Made by a program: the position numbers and the translations under genes. Below, in pieces: positions 2,337-63,270 of a DNA stretch of 64,000 bases. The notes under the pieces were generated by a model. That model made no database searches and was not told the origin of the DNA. It worked only from the letters and a program-made list of their open reading frames with translations. The stretch comes from Rubrobacter tropicus (GTDB lineage Bacteria; Actinomycetota; Rubrobacteria; Rubrobacterales; Rubrobacteraceae): contig NZ_CP045119.1 of the NCBI RefSeq assembly GCF_011492945.1, positions 1,984,001 through 2,048,000 on the forward strand, read 5' to 3'. The stretch's first letter is position 1; the number at the start of each line of letters is the position of its first letter.

Positions 2337-2501
2337 CTAAAGCGGGTTGCGGTGACTCAATGCTACCGCAACCCGCGCGGTCAGCGTCAGCCCGCTGCGG
2401 CCTTCGGCCTCCGCTCTCAGCGATCAGCCCTCTTGCTCTCGCTGAAAGCTGACGGCTGACAGCTTTGCAAAGAGGTCGAACCTCTTGGCAAACCGCCTTA
2501 G
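2337..2501 (+). repeat. Structured terminal-inverted intergenic repeat, copy 1
   Basis: A 165-bp element bounded by CTAAAGCGG at the left and CCGCCTTAG at the right (near-perfect inverted ends). It starts 1 nt after the EamA stop. Hairpin 1 has arms GCGGGTTGCGGT (2342-2353) and ACCGCAACCCGC (2365-2376). Hairpin 2 pairs 2464-2476 with 2480-2492, with one mismatch. Between them lies a degenerate palindromic core rich in GTCAGC/GCTGAC and a GGCCTTCGGCC mini-hairpin. It is homologous over its full length to the reverse complement of 24245-24403, and in its right part to 13866-13981. It may terminate EamA and the convergent peptidase, but no U-tract follows hairpin 1. No transposase is encoded. 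Confidence 0.8.
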
Positions 2502-6491: not shown

Positions 6492-8615
<2,124 letters not shown>

Positions 8616-8681
8616 CCGCCTCGCGGCTATCAGCCACTACCCGGTTTTTGCTGAAAGCTGATAGCTGACCGCTGATAGCTA
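8616..8681. repeat. Core repeat fragment upstream of secD
   Basis: Contains CCGCCTCGCGGCTATCAGCC and tandem variants of GCTGA(A/T)AGCTGA ending in GCTGATAGCT, directly against the secD -10 box. This is the palindromic core of the dispersed intergenic repeat without its terminal hairpins. The repeat supplies the sequence where the -35 and spacer would lie. Confidence 0.6.
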
Positions 8682-11196: not shown

Positions 11197-13869
11197 GTGT
11201 CTACGCCAATTCTAGCCACCAAACTAATTCTAGCCACCAAACTCTATGTGCCCCCGGCGCAGCCCACAGCCGTTCCCCGCTCACGCCTGATCGGGCGCCT
11301 CAACGAGGGTCTGCACCGCAGGCTGACCCTCGTCTGTGCCCCCGCCGGCTTCGGTAAGACCACGCTAATCGGCGAGTGGATCGCCGGTTGCGGGCGGCCC
11401 GCCGCCTGGCTCTCGCTGGAAGAAGGTGACGGCGACCCCGCACGCTTTCTGGCCTACCTCGTCGCCGCTTTGCGGGCGGTCGCTGCGGATATCGGGGAAG
11501 GGATCTTAGACGCGCTCCGATCGCCCCAGCCACCGCCGACCGAACCGCTTCTGACGGCCCTGCTCAATGAGATCGCGACCGTAGAGGACGATTTCTTCCT
11601 CGTGCTCGACGACTACCACCTTGTTGATGCCAAAGTGGTCGACGATGCCATCGCCTTCCTGCTCGAGCACGTGCCCCCGGAAATGCACCTCATCATCGCC
11701 ACCCGGGAGGACCCGCGCCTGCCACTGGCCCGGCTGCGCGCCCGGGGCCAACTGGTTGAGGTGCGCGCCGCGGACCTGCGTTTTAACCCCTCCGAGGCCG
11801 CCGCGTTCCTCAAGGGGGAGATGGGCCTGGACCTCTCGGCGGAGGACATCGCCGCGCTGGAAACCCGCACGGAGGGTTGGATCGCGGGCCTGCAATTAGC
11901 CGCGCTCTCGATGCGGGGGCATGAAGACGCCTCGAGCTTCATCGAATCCTTCACCGGCAGCCACCGTTTCGTGCTTGACTATCTGGTCGAAGAAGTCCTG
12001 CAACAGCAGCCCGAGAGCGTCCAGGGTTTCTTGCTGTGCACGTCTATCCTCGACCGCCTGTGCGGACCGCTGTGTGATGCCGTTCTGCTCGGTTCCTCTG
12101 CATCCGGGCGAGCAACGCTGGAATATATCGAGCGCGCCAACCTGTTCCTGGTCCCCCTGGACGACGAGCGTCGTTGGTACCGCTATCATCATCTCTTCGC
12201 CGAATTGCTGAGACAGCGACTACACCTGGTCAGCGCCCCGTCTACGGGGGCTGCGGTGGGAGACGTGGCCGAATTGCACGGTCGTGCCAGCGCGTGGTAC
12301 GAAGCCAACGGCCTGGAGATAGAGGCTTTTCGCCATGCGGCCGCCGCCAACGACGTCGAGCGCGCCGAGCGCCTCATCGAGGGGGAAGGGGTACCCCTGT
12401 ACTTTCGGGGCACGGTGGCCCCTGTACTAAACTGGCTGGAGTCACTGCCCGGAGCGGTGTTGGATGCCAGGCCCTCGCTGTGGGTAATGTATGCCTCGGT
12501 GTTGTTGCTTGTCGACCATACCGCCGTCGAGCAGAGACTCCGAGCCGCTGAAGCGGCGCTCCAAGGCATCGAGCCGAACGACAGAACCCGAGATCTTGTA
12601 GGACGTGTCGCCTCCATGCGGGCCACGTTGGCTGTCATTCGGCACGATGCAGAGACCATTATTGACCAGTCGCGCCGCGCCCTGGAGTATCTGCACCCCG
12701 ACAACCTGCCTGCCCGCACCGCCACTACCTGGACGCTGGGGCATGCCCATCAGCTTCAGGGAGACCGGGCCGCGGCCGGTAAGGCCTACGCGGAAGTCAT
12801 ATCTACCGGCAACTCGTTCGGGGATTCCGTCTACACCATAGCGGCTACGATAAATCTCGGCCAATTACAGGAAGCAGACAACGAGCTTTCTCTGGCGACA
12901 AAGACCTACGAGCGTGTCCTGGAATTAGCGGGTGATCCGCCGCAACCGATTGCCTGCGAAGCGTGTCTTGGCTTGGCCCGTATAACCTACCAATGGAACG
13001 ACCTGGATGCCGCGGAGCGTCACGGGCAACAATTTGTCCAACTGACGCGGCAGATGGGAAGCGTCGACTCCTTTGCTTCGTATGATGTCTTTCTCGCCCG
13101 CCTGAGACTTGCCCGGGGAGATGTGGCCGGCGCGGTCGCTGTTCTAGTCAGGGCCGAAGAGTTCGTACGCCAGCACGACTTCGTGTTTCGGATGCCCGAC
13201 GTCGCTGCCGCACGCGTGCTTACGTTGCTTTATCAGGGACATCTGCGGGCGGCCGCCCGTCTGGCCGAGACCCACGGCCTCCCGCTCAGCCGCGCCCGCG
13301 TATACCTGGCCCAGGGAGACGCGTCCTCGGCACTGGCGTCGCTGGAGCCGTTGCGCCGGCAGGCAGAGGCAAAGGGCTGGGCGGATGAACGGCTCAGGGT
13401 TATGGTGCTGCAGGCGGTCGCCCTCCACGCGCAGGGGGAAAAGGACGGGGCTGCGCAACTGCTGGACGACGCGCTGGCGCTGGCGGAGCCGGGCGGCTTC
13501 ATCCGCGTCTTTGTCGACGAAGGCAGGCCGATGGCCCACCTGTTGTCCGAAGCGGCCGCTTGTGGGATCGCGCCGGACTATACGGCCAGGTTGCTGGCTG
13601 CGATCGAAGCCGAGGCGCACGAGGGCGTAGATAGATCCTACCTGCCCGCCGCCCGGTCACTCGCCGAGCCGCTGAGCCAACGCGAGCTGGAGGTGCTGCG
13701 GCTCGTCGCCGAGGGACTCTCGAACCGTGAGATCGGCGCGAGGCTCTTCCTCGCCCTGGACACTGTCAAAGGGCACAACCGCAGAATCTTCGGCAAACTG
13801 CTGGTCCACAGGCGCACCGAAGCCGTGGCAAAAGCCAGGGCTCTAGGCATCCTCCCCGGCGAGAACTAG
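11197..13869 (+). CDS. LAL/MalT-type LuxR transcriptional regulator
   Basis: A large (890 aa) ATP-dependent activator. The N-terminal STAND-type NTPase has a Walker A at residues ~48-56 (APAGFGKTT) and an acidic Walker B-like segment (FFLVLDDYHLV). It is followed by a winged-helix region, a long TPR-like helical middle that would sense the inducer, and a C-terminal LuxR HTH (LSQRELEVLRLVAEGLSNREIG, DTVKGHNRRIFGKL). Ligand and targets are unknown. The start GTG 11197 lacks a good Shine-Dalgarno. Codons 5-10 and 11-16 are an almost exact 18-bp tandem duplication (ILATKL ILATKL). A structured repeat begins on its stop codon. The gene may be part of an accessory insertion together with the next three genes. 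Confidence 0.93.
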   Translation: MSTPILATKLILATKLYVPPAQPTAVPRSRLIGRLNEGLHRRLTLVCAPAGFGKTTLIGEWIAGCGRPAAWLSLEEGDGDPARFLAYLVAALRAVAADIGEGILDALRSPQPPPTEPLLTALLNEIATVEDDFFLVLDDYHLVDAKVVDDAIAFLLEHVPPEMHLIIATREDPRLPLARLRARGQLVEVRAADLRFNPSEAAAFLKGEMGLDLSAEDIAALETRTEGWIAGLQLAALSMRGHEDASSFIESFTGSHRFVLDYLVEEVLQQQPESVQGFLLCTSILDRLCGPLCDAVLLGSSASGRATLEYIERANLFLVPLDDERRWYRYHHLFAELLRQRLHLVSAPSTGAAVGDVAELHGRASAWYEANGLEIEAFRHAAAANDVERAERLIEGEGVPLYFRGTVAPVLNWLESLPGAVLDARPSLWVMYASVLLLVDHTAVEQRLRAAEAALQGIEPNDRTRDLVGRVASMRATLAVIRHDAETIIDQSRRALEYLHPDNLPARTATTWTLGHAHQLQGDRAAAGKAYAEVISTGNSFGDSVYTIAATINLGQLQEADNELSLATKTYERVLELAGDPPQPIACEACLGLARITYQWNDLDAAERHGQQFVQLTRQMGSVDSFASYDVFLARLRLARGDVAGAVAVLVRAEEFVRQHDFVFRMPDVAAARVLTLLYQGHLRAAARLAETHGLPLSRARVYLAQGDASSALASLEPLRRQAEAKGWADERLRVMVLQAVALHAQGEKDGAAQLLDDALALAEPGGFIRVFVDEGRPMAHLLSEAAACGIAPDYTARLLAAIEAEAHEGVDRSYLPAARSLAEPLSQRELEVLRLVAEGLSNREIGARLFLALDTVKGHNRRIFGKLLVHRRTEAVAKARALGILPGEN

Positions 13870-13981
13870 AGCGGTCGGCTATCAGCCCGCTGCGGCCTAC
13901 GGCCTTCGCTCTCAGCCATCGGCTTTTTGTTCTTGCTGATGGCTTTGCAAAGGGGTTCACCCCCTTTGCAAACCGCTTTAG
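13866..13981 (+). repeat. Structured terminal-inverted intergenic repeat, copy 3
   Basis: A 116-bp copy running from CTAGAGCGG, which contains the LuxR-regulator stop codon, to CCGCTTTAG. It lacks hairpin 1 of copies 1 and 2. It keeps the core (GGCCTACGGCC, CTCAGCCATC) and a perfect 12-bp hairpin 2: TTTGCAAAGGGG (13944-13955) and CCCCTTTGCAAA (13961-13972). Hairpin 2 may terminate the regulator gene. Confidence 0.75.
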
Positions 13982-18510: not shown

Positions 18511-18620
18511 GTCAGCGGTCAGCTTGTCAGCACTTCGGCTTTTTGGCTGACGGGCTGAGAGCGAGGGCCGCAAGGCCCTAAGCGTGCCGAGAGCGGAGGC
18601 GAAGCCGGAGCGTGCTGAAG
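18511..18620. repeat. Core repeat copy upstream of rel
   Basis: A palindromic core without the AAAGCGG-type ends. It contains GTCAGCACTTCGGC, GGCTGACGGGCTGAGAGCG, a GGGCCGCAAGGCCC mini-hairpin and GGCGAAGCCGGAGCGTGCTGA. The last module recurs nearly exactly at 49721-49741 and in inverted form at 45690-45710. Its right end runs within 4 nt of the rel -10 box. Confidence 0.7.
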
Positions 18621-24244: not shown

Positions 24245-24403
24245 CTAAAGCGGTCTGCAAAGAGGTTGGGCCTCTTTGCAGGGCTATCAGCTAGCAGCTT
24301 TCAGCAAGAGCAAAAAAGGCTGAGAGCGGAGGCGAAGCCGGAGCGGGCTGACAAGCCGACAGCGCGGATCGCGGTGGCATTGAGCCACCGCGATCCGCTT
24401 TAG
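24245..24403 (-). repeat. Structured terminal-inverted intergenic repeat, copy 2
   Basis: A 159-bp element between CTAAAGCGG (24245-24253) and CCGCTTTAG (24395-24403), i.e. perfect 9-bp inverted ends. Read on the minus strand it starts immediately after the stop of the 24404 gene and is homologous end to end to copy 1. Hairpin 1 is a perfect 15-bp stem (24364-24378 with 24384-24398) with the same 5-nt loop as copy 1. Hairpin 2 is an 11-bp stem (24255-24265 with 24271-24281). TTAG flanks both ends directly. It lies between the convergent sirtuin and secreted mini-protein genes and may serve as their terminator. Confidence 0.82.
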
Positions 24404-24676
24404 TTAGAGACCGAAGATGTTGCCGGCGAAGGCCACGGCGTCCTGGTCAGACGTGTTGTAGTTCGTCTGGTTCAACTCCTGGTTGGCGTGGTTATCGCCG
24501 TTCATGGCAAACTGCACGTTGTTTTGCACGCCGATGTTGAGTTGGATGTTGGTATTGTAATTGTTGGCGGTCGCGTCGCCCGAGTTGTCCTGGGCGAAAT
24601 CGTCGGCCATCGCGGGGGCCGCCATTGCCAGCATCATCGCCAGCGCCGTCGCCAGCGCGGCCATTTTGGTCTTCAC
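24404..24676 (-). CDS. Secreted Asn/Gln-rich mini-protein A
   Basis: A 90-residue protein starting at GTG 24676. Signal peptide ~1-24 (ALATALAMMLAMAAPAMA); mature part ~65 residues. It opens with DDFAQDNSGDAT and ends in NYNTSDQDAVAFAGNIFGL, both shared with the paralogue upstream. The middle is unusually rich in Asn and Gln (NIQLNIGVQNNVQFAMNGDN) with alternating polar/hydrophobic spacing loosely like curlin repeats. There are no Cys and no transmembrane helix. No family was recognised. It is co-oriented with mini-protein B, 91 nt downstream of it, and probably co-transcribed. A structured repeat abuts its stop. Confidence 0.75.
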   Translation of the reverse strand: MKTKMAALATALAMMLAMAAPAMADDFAQDNSGDATANNYNTNIQLNIGVQNNVQFAMNGDNHANQELNQTNYNTSDQDAVAFAGNIFGL

Positions 24677-24767
24677 CTTCGTGGCTCCTCTCCGACGGGC
24701 GGGCCCTCCGGGAGGGCCCGCCTGCCACCTGACGCCGTACGCGGTCGCCTACCGCTTGCCTTTCGGC

Positions 24768-25043
24768 CTAGAAACCGTCGGCGGCGATGTTGCCGGCGAA
24801 GGCCACGCCGATCTGCTCGCTCGTGTTGTAGTTCACCTGCACGAGCGACTGCTCGCTGGAGTTGTCTCCCTCCTCGGAGTACTGATCCACGTGCTGATCG
24901 GCGTAGTTGGCCTGATCGGTGGCGTTGTAGTTGTCGACGGTCGCGTCGCCCGAGTTGTCCTGGGCGAAATCGTCGGCCATCGCGGGGGCCGCCATCGTAA
25001 GCACCATCGCGAGGGTCGCCGCCAGGGCGAGAAGCTTCTTCAC
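24768..25043 (-). CDS. Secreted Asn/Gln-rich mini-protein B
   Basis: A 91-residue paralogue of mini-protein A. The start is GTG 25043 (VKKLLALAATLAM), with AAGGAGGAA 3 nt upstream. In-frame sequence continues to 25193, but the strong ribosome site and the signal peptide fix this start. Mature N-terminus DDFAQDNSGDAT and C-terminal NYNTSEQIGVAFAGN match its partner; the middle has diverged and is more acidic (YSEEGDNSSEQSLVQ). Conserved ends with a diverged middle suggest a tandem duplication. It reads away from the response regulator gene on the same strand. Function unknown; structural or adhesive surface material is only a guess. Confidence 0.75.
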   Translation of the reverse strand: MKKLLALAATLAMVLTMAAPAMADDFAQDNSGDATVDNYNATDQANYADQHVDQYSEEGDNSSEQSLVQVNYNTSEQIGVAFAGNIAADGF

Positions 25044-30939: not shown

Positions 30940-30956
30940 CCCGCGTCCCGATCTAG

Positions 30957-31008
30957 GGCTGAAAGCCGAGAGCTAACAGCTGAAAGCGCGGCTCGCCGCG
31001 CGAGCCGA
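30957..31008. repeat. Core repeat fragment between aspS and deacetylase gene
   Basis: Tandem GCTGAAAGCCGAGAGC and GCTAACAGCTGAAAGCGC, followed by a GGCTCGCCGCGCGAGCC hairpin. Same GCTGAAAGC-type core as the other intergenic repeats, lying directly after the aspS stop. Confidence 0.55.
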
Positions 31009-45666: not shown

Positions 45667-45975
45667 CACGCTCGCTTCGCGAGCTTGTCGGCACGCTCCG
45701 GCTTCGCCTCCGCTTTCAGCACGGCGCTGCGCGCCTTTCAGCCTGTCAGCCAGTCGTCTACGTGCGATACGTTTCGCGACAACGGAATCGCTTTCGCAAT
45801 GCGCCGCCCGGTTGGGCCCCGCTCGGCAAAAAGCTGAAAGCGTAGGCCGAAGGCCGGAGCGTGCCGAAAGCGAGGCCTGCGAAGCAGGCCGATGCGTGCT
45901 GAGAGTGGAGCCCATAGGGCGGAACGTGCTGACAAGCGGATCCCGCAAGGGCGAAGCGTGCTGACAAGCTGTTGG
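45664..45975. repeat. Compound palindromic repeat array between rpe and rib operon
   Basis: About 310 bp of intergenic modules. The left arm carries GCTCGCTTCGCGAGC, then GGCACGCTCCGGCTTCGCC, TTTCAGC and CTGTCAGCC. The right arm carries the inverse: GCTGAAAGCGTAGGCCG, then four AGCGTGC(T/C)GA(C/G/A)A units separated by small hairpins (GGCCTGCGAAGCAGGCC, GCCCATAGGGC, TCCCGCAAGGGC). It ends at the rib promoter -35. It is the longest of the dispersed core repeats in the window. No CRISPR-like identical repeat/spacer pattern and no ORF. Confidence 0.65.
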
Positions 45976-49140: not shown

Positions 49141-49641
49141 ATGCGTCGAGACGACGGCGCCAACCACATTGAGGGCACCCTCTCCGCTAGCGGCAAATCC
49201 TTCGGGATCGTCGCCTCCCGCTTCAACGACTTCATAGTCAAGTCGATGCTGGAAGGCTCGCTAGAAGCCGTGCGGCGCCACGGCGGCGACGTCGGCTCGG
49301 TGGACGTCGCCTGGGTGCCCGGCTCCTACGAGATACCGCTGGCCGCCAGGCAAATGGCGCTAACGGGCCGCTACGACGCCGTGATTTGCCTCGGAGCCGT
49401 CATCCGCGGCTCCACCGCCCACTTCGAATACGTGGCAAACGGCGCCGCCGGGGGCATCTCCGCAGTCGCCCTGGAAACCGGCGTCCCGACCATCTTCGGC
49501 GTCATCACGACCGAGACCATAGAACAGGCAATCGAGCGGGCCGGCACCAAAATGGGCAACAAAGGCTTCGAGGCCGCCGTCTCCGCCATAGAGATGGCCG
49601 ACCTGATGCCCCGCATAAAAAGCGGAGGGGGGACTGCTTAA
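49141..49641 (+). CDS. ribH: 6,7-dimethyl-8-ribityllumazine synthase
   Basis: Condenses the two riboflavin precursors, forming an icosahedral or pentameric shell. The 166-residue protein has GIVASRFNDFIVKSML, VPGSYEIPLAA, AVICLGAVIRGSTAHFEYVAN (catalytic His) and VPTIFGVITTETIEQAIERAGTKMGNKG. ATG 49141 follows AGGAGGAAAG. The last codons form the left arm of the operon terminator, and the TAA stop sits at the hairpin apex. Confidence 0.97.
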   Translation: MRRDDGANHIEGTLSASGKSFGIVASRFNDFIVKSMLEGSLEAVRRHGGDVGSVDVAWVPGSYEIPLAARQMALTGRYDAVICLGAVIRGSTAHFEYVANGAAGGISAVALETGVPTIFGVITTETIEQAIERAGTKMGNKGFEAAVSAIEMADLMPRIKSGGGTA

Positions 49642-49661
49642 GCAGTCCCCCCTCCGCTTTT
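49618..49661 (+). terminator. Terminator hairpin containing the ribH stop codon
   Basis: A perfect 44-nt palindrome, arms AAAAGCGGAGGGGGGACTGC and its complement, centred between 49639 and 49640 on TTAA, ending in TTTT. The stop TAA (49639-49641) is at the apex. The A/T-flanked arms also make it a bidirectional terminator for the convergent rpmB. Confidence 0.85.
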
Positions 49662-49753
49662 AGCCTGTCAGCTAGTCAGCACTTCAGCCTGTCAGCTTTC
49701 TGGCTGACTAGCTGAGAGCGTAGGCGAAGCCGGAGCGTGCTGACAAGCTGGAG
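49662..49753. repeat. Core repeat between ribH and rpmB
   Basis: Contains a perfect 13-bp inverted repeat TCAGCTAGTCAGC (49668-49680)/GCTGACTAGCTGA (49703-49715), with CAGCCTGTCAGC inside its loop. The module GGCGAAGCCGGAGCGTGCTGA shared with the rel-upstream copy follows, then CAAGC. It fills the gap between the convergent genes. Confidence 0.7.
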
Positions 49754-63135: not shown

Positions 63136-63185
63136 GGGCCGCTCGCTTCGCGAGCTTGTCAGCCTGTCAGCATCTCGGCTCTCTG
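63136..63185. repeat. Core repeat fragment after rnc
   Basis: A GCTCGCTTCGCGAGC hairpin followed by TTGTCAGCCTGTCAGCATC and CGGCTCTCTGG. The hairpin is identical to the left edge of the 45664-45975 array. Confidence 0.6.
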
Positions 63186-63270
63186 GATCAGAATCATTCA
63201 TCAGGGGGATGTGTTCGCCTGCTTTCTGTGCCTATGGTGCCCGTCGAAGAAGCGATAACGGAGGACGCTT

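Follow-up and report, generated by a model that had tools for sequence, protein, structure and literature searches.

A dispersed intergenic repeat of Rubrobacter tropicus, present in three copies in the window (the whole 64,000-nucleotide stretch of chromosome analysed), represents a new element family, and its members are probably non-autonomous mobile elements of the MITE/BIME kind, which would insert at CTA(G) and whose palindromes would be kept paired by template switching. The element has the hallmarks of a MITE, being short and multi-copy with terminal inverted repeats and no transposase gene inside. A first-pass annotation had described two of the copies with correct coordinates and an end-to-end alignment, had noted the inverted-repeat ends (CTAAAGCGG and CCGCCTTAG/CCGCTTTAG) and the missing transposase, and had named no described family of this type. 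In agreement with the last point, Rfam at gathering score gave no match to the element, its sole match in the window being an FMN riboswitch elsewhere, and a Rubrobacter literature search found no paper on such a repeat. To that annotation the present analysis adds the third window copy, the inversion of loops, the position of stop codons and the arms made of (GCTGANN)n heptads. The copies in the window comprise the following features:

2337..2501, plus strand: copy 1, full element (BLAST query; covariance-model match)
2337..2345, plus strand: left terminus CTAAAGCGG of copy 1
2342..2376, plus strand: hairpin 1 of copy 1, arms 2342-2356 and 2362-2376, loop TCAAT 2357-2361
2377..2463, plus strand: central part of copy 1, with TCAGC-type heptads, module CCGCTGCGGCCTTCGGCCTCCGC, TCAGC heptads, loop CCTCTTGCTCTC and opposing GCTGANN heptads
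2464..2492, plus strand: hairpin 3 of copy 1, TTTGCAAAGAGGT-CGA-ACCTCTTGGCAAA
2493..2501, plus strand: right terminus CCGCCTTAG of copy 1
13866..13981, plus strand: copy 3, element without hairpin 1, CTAGAGCGG running directly into TCGGC; hairpin 3 GCAAAGGGG/CCCCCTTTGC
24245..24403, minus strand: copy 2, full element (aligned with copy 1; covariance-model match)
24255..24281, minus strand: hairpin 3 of copy 2, CTGCAAAGAGG-CCCAA-CCTCTTTGCAG
24364..24398, minus strand: hairpin 1 of copy 2, loop TCAAT 24379-24383

Anatomy of the element

Full copies begin with CTARAGCGG, followed by hairpin 1 (which begins inside the terminus), GC plus NNTCAGC heptads and the module CCGCTCCGGCTTCGCCTCCGC. Beyond it come more NNTCAGC heptads, then a loop rich in T and GCTGANN heptads in the opposed sense, and the copy closes with hairpin 3 (usually TTTGCAAAGAGG...CCTCTTTGCAAA) and CCGCTYTAG. 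The ends can be written as CTARAGCGGTTTGC, and both carry a CTAR foot in an inverted pair of hairpins with variable stems. The elements measure roughly 115-190 bp; in full copies the short inverted ends read CTARAGCGG...CCGCTYTAG, hairpins 1 and 3 form the terminal palindromes, and opposed (NNTCAGC)n and (GCTGANN)n heptads make up the middle. Among 90 copies with enough flank, both ends are intact in 41, only the left in 25, only the right in 11 and neither in 13, so that 49 of the 90 are without at least one intact end; this truncation on one or both sides fits decay, yet it blurs the unit. Hairpin 1 is missing at window position 13866 and in L016, L107, L116 and L132, where CTARAGCGG joins the heptads directly, a structure expected from deletion between the GCGG repeats that flank the hairpin.

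Several related arrangements were seen. At L014 (C1:3252199-3252501) two tandem elements have one common CTAG, where the right end of the first overlaps the left end of the second, an arrangement suggestive of insertion of one element into the terminus of the other. TCAGC/GCTGA heptads and the module GCTCCGGCTTCGCCTCCGC are found without CTAAAGCGG ends at 8604-8680, 18512-18620, 30950-30990, 45682-45971, 49651-49750 and 63150-63192 of the window; the core modules also occur as separate mosaic repeats. The FMN riboswitch (RF00050; 46009-46180, plus strand) lies just downstream of the large heptad/hairpin array at 45682-45971. Next to copy 2, window positions 24416-25029 hold two adjacent paralogous small genes of about 90 amino acids, with 74% DNA identity over 244 bp and no Pfam match.

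Copy number and distribution

The recurrence of the element is far above chance. BLAST with copy 1 as query detected 40 copies, full or partial, in the R. tropicus genome (E <= 6e-17), spread over the whole chromosome, while a covariance model built from 13 copies gave about 138 matches on the 4.38 Mb chromosome at E <= 1e-5. The first-pass annotation had proposed a dispersed intergenic family and had named two outcomes as speaking against it, namely that the two copies were the only ones or that covariation was absent; neither occurred, given the 138 matches and the hairpin-1 covariation above the null (see below). The 205 kb second contig (C2) had no covariance-model match, about six being expected by length. 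A stretch of this contig is nearest to a Rubrobacter marinus plasmid (79%).

Within the bacterial family the full element is patchy, with matches in 11 of 39 genomes, R. tropicus included. A longer terminus, CTARAGCGGTTTGCRRARRGG, was found 102 times in R. tropicus with three mismatches allowed, compared to nine times for the reversed control, and it is also in excess in four relatives (G007, G001, G034 and G017). In the relatives with this excess, paired termini usually lie about 120-200 bp apart in the same layout, with quite different stems. No match to the element was obtained in a plasmid collection. A pattern scan of genome contigs returned 14 single matches across unrelated phyla, which were judged to be chance.

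Orthologous sites in relatives

The element is absent from the orthologous position in relatives at three sites. At L107 it lies between a MarR-like and a citrate-synthase-like gene (named by eye from the translations), and both genes are present in relative G006 (at 80% and 89% identity), which lacks the element. The alignment reads ...TGATCTCTACCGCTC... in G006 and ...TTACCCTA[element]TAGCGCTC... in R. tropicus, with CTA and TAG on either side of the element as against a single CTA in G006, and a one-base ambiguity upstream. This near-clean empty site is consistent with insertion at CTA(G) and a 2-bp TA duplication. The element is also absent in G006 at L124 (ligA/sulfatase) and in G006 and G005 at window position 13866, where the spacers of the relatives are too diverged to read a duplication; L124 is not counted as clean, since G006 has a spacer of about 60 bp there, which could be native or could derive from a copy by decay. 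The search for empty sites near 24245 and near one G034 copy met broken synteny or too much divergence. We therefore read the TA duplication from one near-clean site, because the relatives are only about 70-89% identical, and suggest that the element would insert at CTA(G), probably duplicating TA.

Covariation and palindrome dynamics

Hairpin 1 is GCGGGTTGCGGTGAC-TCAAT-GCTACCGCAACCCGC in copy 1 and GCGGATCGCGGTGGC-TCAAT-GCCACCGCGATCCGC in copy 2. As described in the first-pass annotation, pair 5 is G-C in the former and A-T in the latter, pair 7 is T-A and C-G, respectively, and pairs 13 and 14, in copy 1 a G-T wobble and an A-C mismatch, are both G-C in copy 2. This pattern extends to the family. 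Across 73 copies with the 15-bp hairpin-1 window, pairs 5, 6, 7, 8, 9, 12 and 13 occupied ranks 1-7 of 435 column pairs (E <= 0.02) in a G-test with average-product correction, the null being alignments with substitutions re-dealt along the tree. Inclusion of a copy required pairing at 11 of the 15 positions; BLAST alone supplied the first 40 copies, and those added later came from a model in which pairing is rewarded. The covariation of hairpin 1 is real. The annotation had gone further and taken the paired changes as an indication of a selected fold, "not simple copying", and this part was not supported.

Several properties of the stems and loops argue against that step. Hairpin 1 has five loop pairs that are reverse complements of each other (32 copies; none reverse-only, one complement-only), and hairpin 3 has four (28 copies; both controls zero). 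The hairpin-1 loops TCAAT/ATTGA are flipped on the identical stem GCGGATCGCGGTGGC; the others are TCATT/AATGA, TGATC/GATCA, CTTGA/TCAAG and ATCTA/TAGAT, the last on two unrelated singleton stems and possibly due to chance. The flipped loops of hairpin 3 are GGCCCAACC/GGTTGGGCC, GTCGAAC/GTTCGAC, GTTCTAC/GTAGAAC and GTCGAAAC/GTTTCGAC, and the loop of hairpin 2 is inverted in five copies (L037, L085, L107, L123 and L129). Stem mismatches comprise 13 GT and 16 AC in hairpin 1 and 5 GT and 14 AC in hairpin 3, pooled 18 versus 30 (two-sided p = 0.11, the trend running against G-U tolerance); as such mismatches may have arisen by recent decay, this result is supporting only. The lack of a G-T preference speaks against RNA selection on the element's strand, which predicts the opposite. 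Even the most similar copies often differ by paired changes: in disjoint pairs of these, differences on both arms outnumbered those on one arm by 113 to 46. Moreover, 37 of 80 paired differences are transversions, which are impossible via G-U. Stems vary from 7 to 19 bp, and 55 of 79 are perfect.

Template switching is known to yield arm homogenisation and spacer inversion (PMC8604942), and a published proposal credits it with generating and preserving RNA hairpins that show compensatory changes of several bases together with inverted loops (PMC8794818). The inverted loops, the G-U result, the paired differences and the paired stems of variable length thus point to copying at the DNA level. 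During replication, one arm of a palindrome would serve as template for the other, so that the arms stay complementary; such switching would alter both arms together and the stem length on both sides, would flip loops and may sometimes delete a hairpin between short flanking repeats (GCGG). Since paired changes follow from arm templating, they alone are no proof of selection on an RNA fold. Arm-templated copying yields them without selection; fold selection could act additionally and is the weaker of the two explanations.

The same patterns might come from ectopic gene conversion that swaps hairpin modules between copies, with no template switching within a single hairpin. As the arms are palindromic, a donor can enter either way, and covariation and inversion would both reflect module swapping. 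Identical stems in copies that differ elsewhere, and different stems in copies that are otherwise similar, agree with this scheme, but the homology is only 15-35 bp and many stems are private to one copy (e.g. L101, L103 and L094), hence not copied from another sampled element. We regard gene conversion as a very improbable sole cause, although it could contribute alongside template switching by spreading flipped hairpins between copies.

Gene-end placement and stop codons

Genes were assigned by a simple caller based on codon usage. Of 86 copies, 56 are flanked by convergent genes, 28 by codirectional and 2 by divergent ones; convergent junctions make up 5 of 59 in the window. The stop codon of the upstream gene falls exactly at element positions 2-4 (offset -4) at 32 of 66 intact left ends (18 TAG, 7 TAA, 7 TGA), and its mirror image occurs at 19 of 52 intact right ends, no other stop-to-element distance recurring as often. 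In the window, the TAG of a MalT/LuxR-type gene (13867-13869) lies within the left terminus of copy 3, the EamA transporter gene upstream of copy 1 stops at 2333-2335, one base ahead of the left terminus, and the left end of copy 2 directly adjoins the stop codon (24404-24406) of gene 24404-24676 on the minus strand.

Such a placement might suggest a structured RNA, acting as a bidirectional 3'-end signal whose hairpin after the stop codon ends or protects the mRNA, with selection on the fold driving compensation. Transcription would then end without a U-tract, or the mRNA would be protected, at each end of the element. Hairpins that start only a few bases from stop codons at either side, the share of copies between convergent genes and the long, GC-rich, strongly covarying stems are in line with this proposal. 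However, it has to accommodate inverted loops, no excess of G-U over A-C, stems barely constrained in sequence and length, and many copies that remain at gene ends without hairpin 1 or 3. Furthermore, no intrinsic terminator (hairpin followed by a T-run) was detected in 2200-2700, the region of copy 1, and the placement is also predicted by the survival of insertions. We consider a 3'-end signal improbable.

If the elements insert at CTA(G), the position of the stop codons would have another origin. CTAG occurs 46 times in the window versus 195 expected, and 15 of the 46 are stop codons. CTAG is rare in this genome and about a third of its occurrences are stops; insertion there leaves the stop codon intact, which accounts for the coincidence with no role in termination, and element ends would often provide the stop codon of the neighbouring gene. 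Copies would survive mainly at gene 3' ends and between convergent genes. A perfect palindrome, AAAAAGCGGAGGGGGGACTGCTTAAGCAGTCCCCCCTCCGCTTTT, is present between convergent genes at window positions 49616-49662, flanked by A/T-runs like a bidirectional terminator.

Search for a mobilising partner

The mobilising partner is lost or unrecognised. In R. tropicus, the only IS630-type candidate was a single DDE_3 gene (C1:3964458), with ends CAGATAG..AACTGGC that are unrelated to those of the element. The Y1/RAYT transposase domain (PF01797) had no match in this genome (G000), nor were Y1 transposases present in the element carriers G017 and G011; they occur in G007, G001 and G034, all with related elements, and none of four Y1 loci in relatives is bracketed by the element. 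Near Y1-transposase genes of relatives (L177 position 1958, L179 position 1386) we noted CTRAAGCGGGAGGCTTTCTCGCCTC, an end hairpin of the IS200/IS605 type with a foot similar to the element terminus, perhaps by coincidence.

These results bear on a REP/BIME-type element that a RAYT-like tyrosine transposase would mobilise in single-stranded form. Recognition by the foot (CTAR, compared to GTAG in REPs) and by hairpin shape would tolerate variable stems and flipped loops. Published REPs take the form of a GTAGGAGCGG-hairpin and similar (PMC2817692). The element has two inverted hairpins, each after a conserved short foot, and more than 100 intergenic copies, and the Y1 transposases of three element-carrying relatives fit as well. 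Nevertheless, the enzyme is missing from R. tropicus, G017 and G011, the known Y1 loci are unbracketed, and the near-clean L107 site fits a TA duplication, which is not known from REPs. A RAYT-moved element is therefore quite unlikely. Somewhat more room, though still at a doubtful level, is left for ends recognised by hairpin shape plus the CTAR foot and not by sequence, with stems that drift under template switching but keep their two arms matched, an unrecognised transposase, and copies serving as paired stop-codon/3'-end caps between convergent genes.

Relation to known systems and significance

The preferred reading, MITE-like elements that insert at CTA(G), places the family closest to IS630/Tc1-mariner-type MITEs (ERIC, Correia, RUP), which are likewise short, intergenic and gene-free, with many copies and inverted ends. 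IS630-family elements insert at TA with a 2-bp duplication (PMC2170065). The Rubrobacter element differs from these MITEs in its short conserved ends, its inner palindromes of variable sequence and its heptad core; the TA duplication is seen at one site only, and no IS630 with matching ends was found in the genome. IS630 itself reportedly prefers TA within 5'-CTAG-3', as is said to have been described by Tenzen and Ohtsubo in 1991, and this preference matches the CTA...TAG ends. Membership of the IS630 group is unproven, since no partner was found, but the element appears MITE-like with a target choice most like that of this group. REP/BIME systems with RAYT have in common with the element inverted hairpin pairs that carry a conserved 5' foot, a copy number above 100 and a position at gene 3' ends; REP stems are conserved within a genome, whereas the stems here are not, and the missing RAYT disfavours membership. 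Template-switch palindromes resemble the element in that several bases change in pairs, arms are perfect and loops occur inverted (PMC8794818; PMC8604942). Those papers dealt with hairpins of rRNA and RNA genes and with yeast genes, while here three hairpins of one bacterial repeat family are concerned.

Covariation is widely held to be the best evidence for a functional RNA. With about 100 copies that combine strong covariation, flipped loops and no G-U bias, the family offers a natural test set for fold selection against template-switch mutation, and it calls for caution when RNAs are sought by covariance in palindromic repeats. It also illustrates how, in a GC-rich genome, elements that target CTAG can land harmlessly in stop codons.
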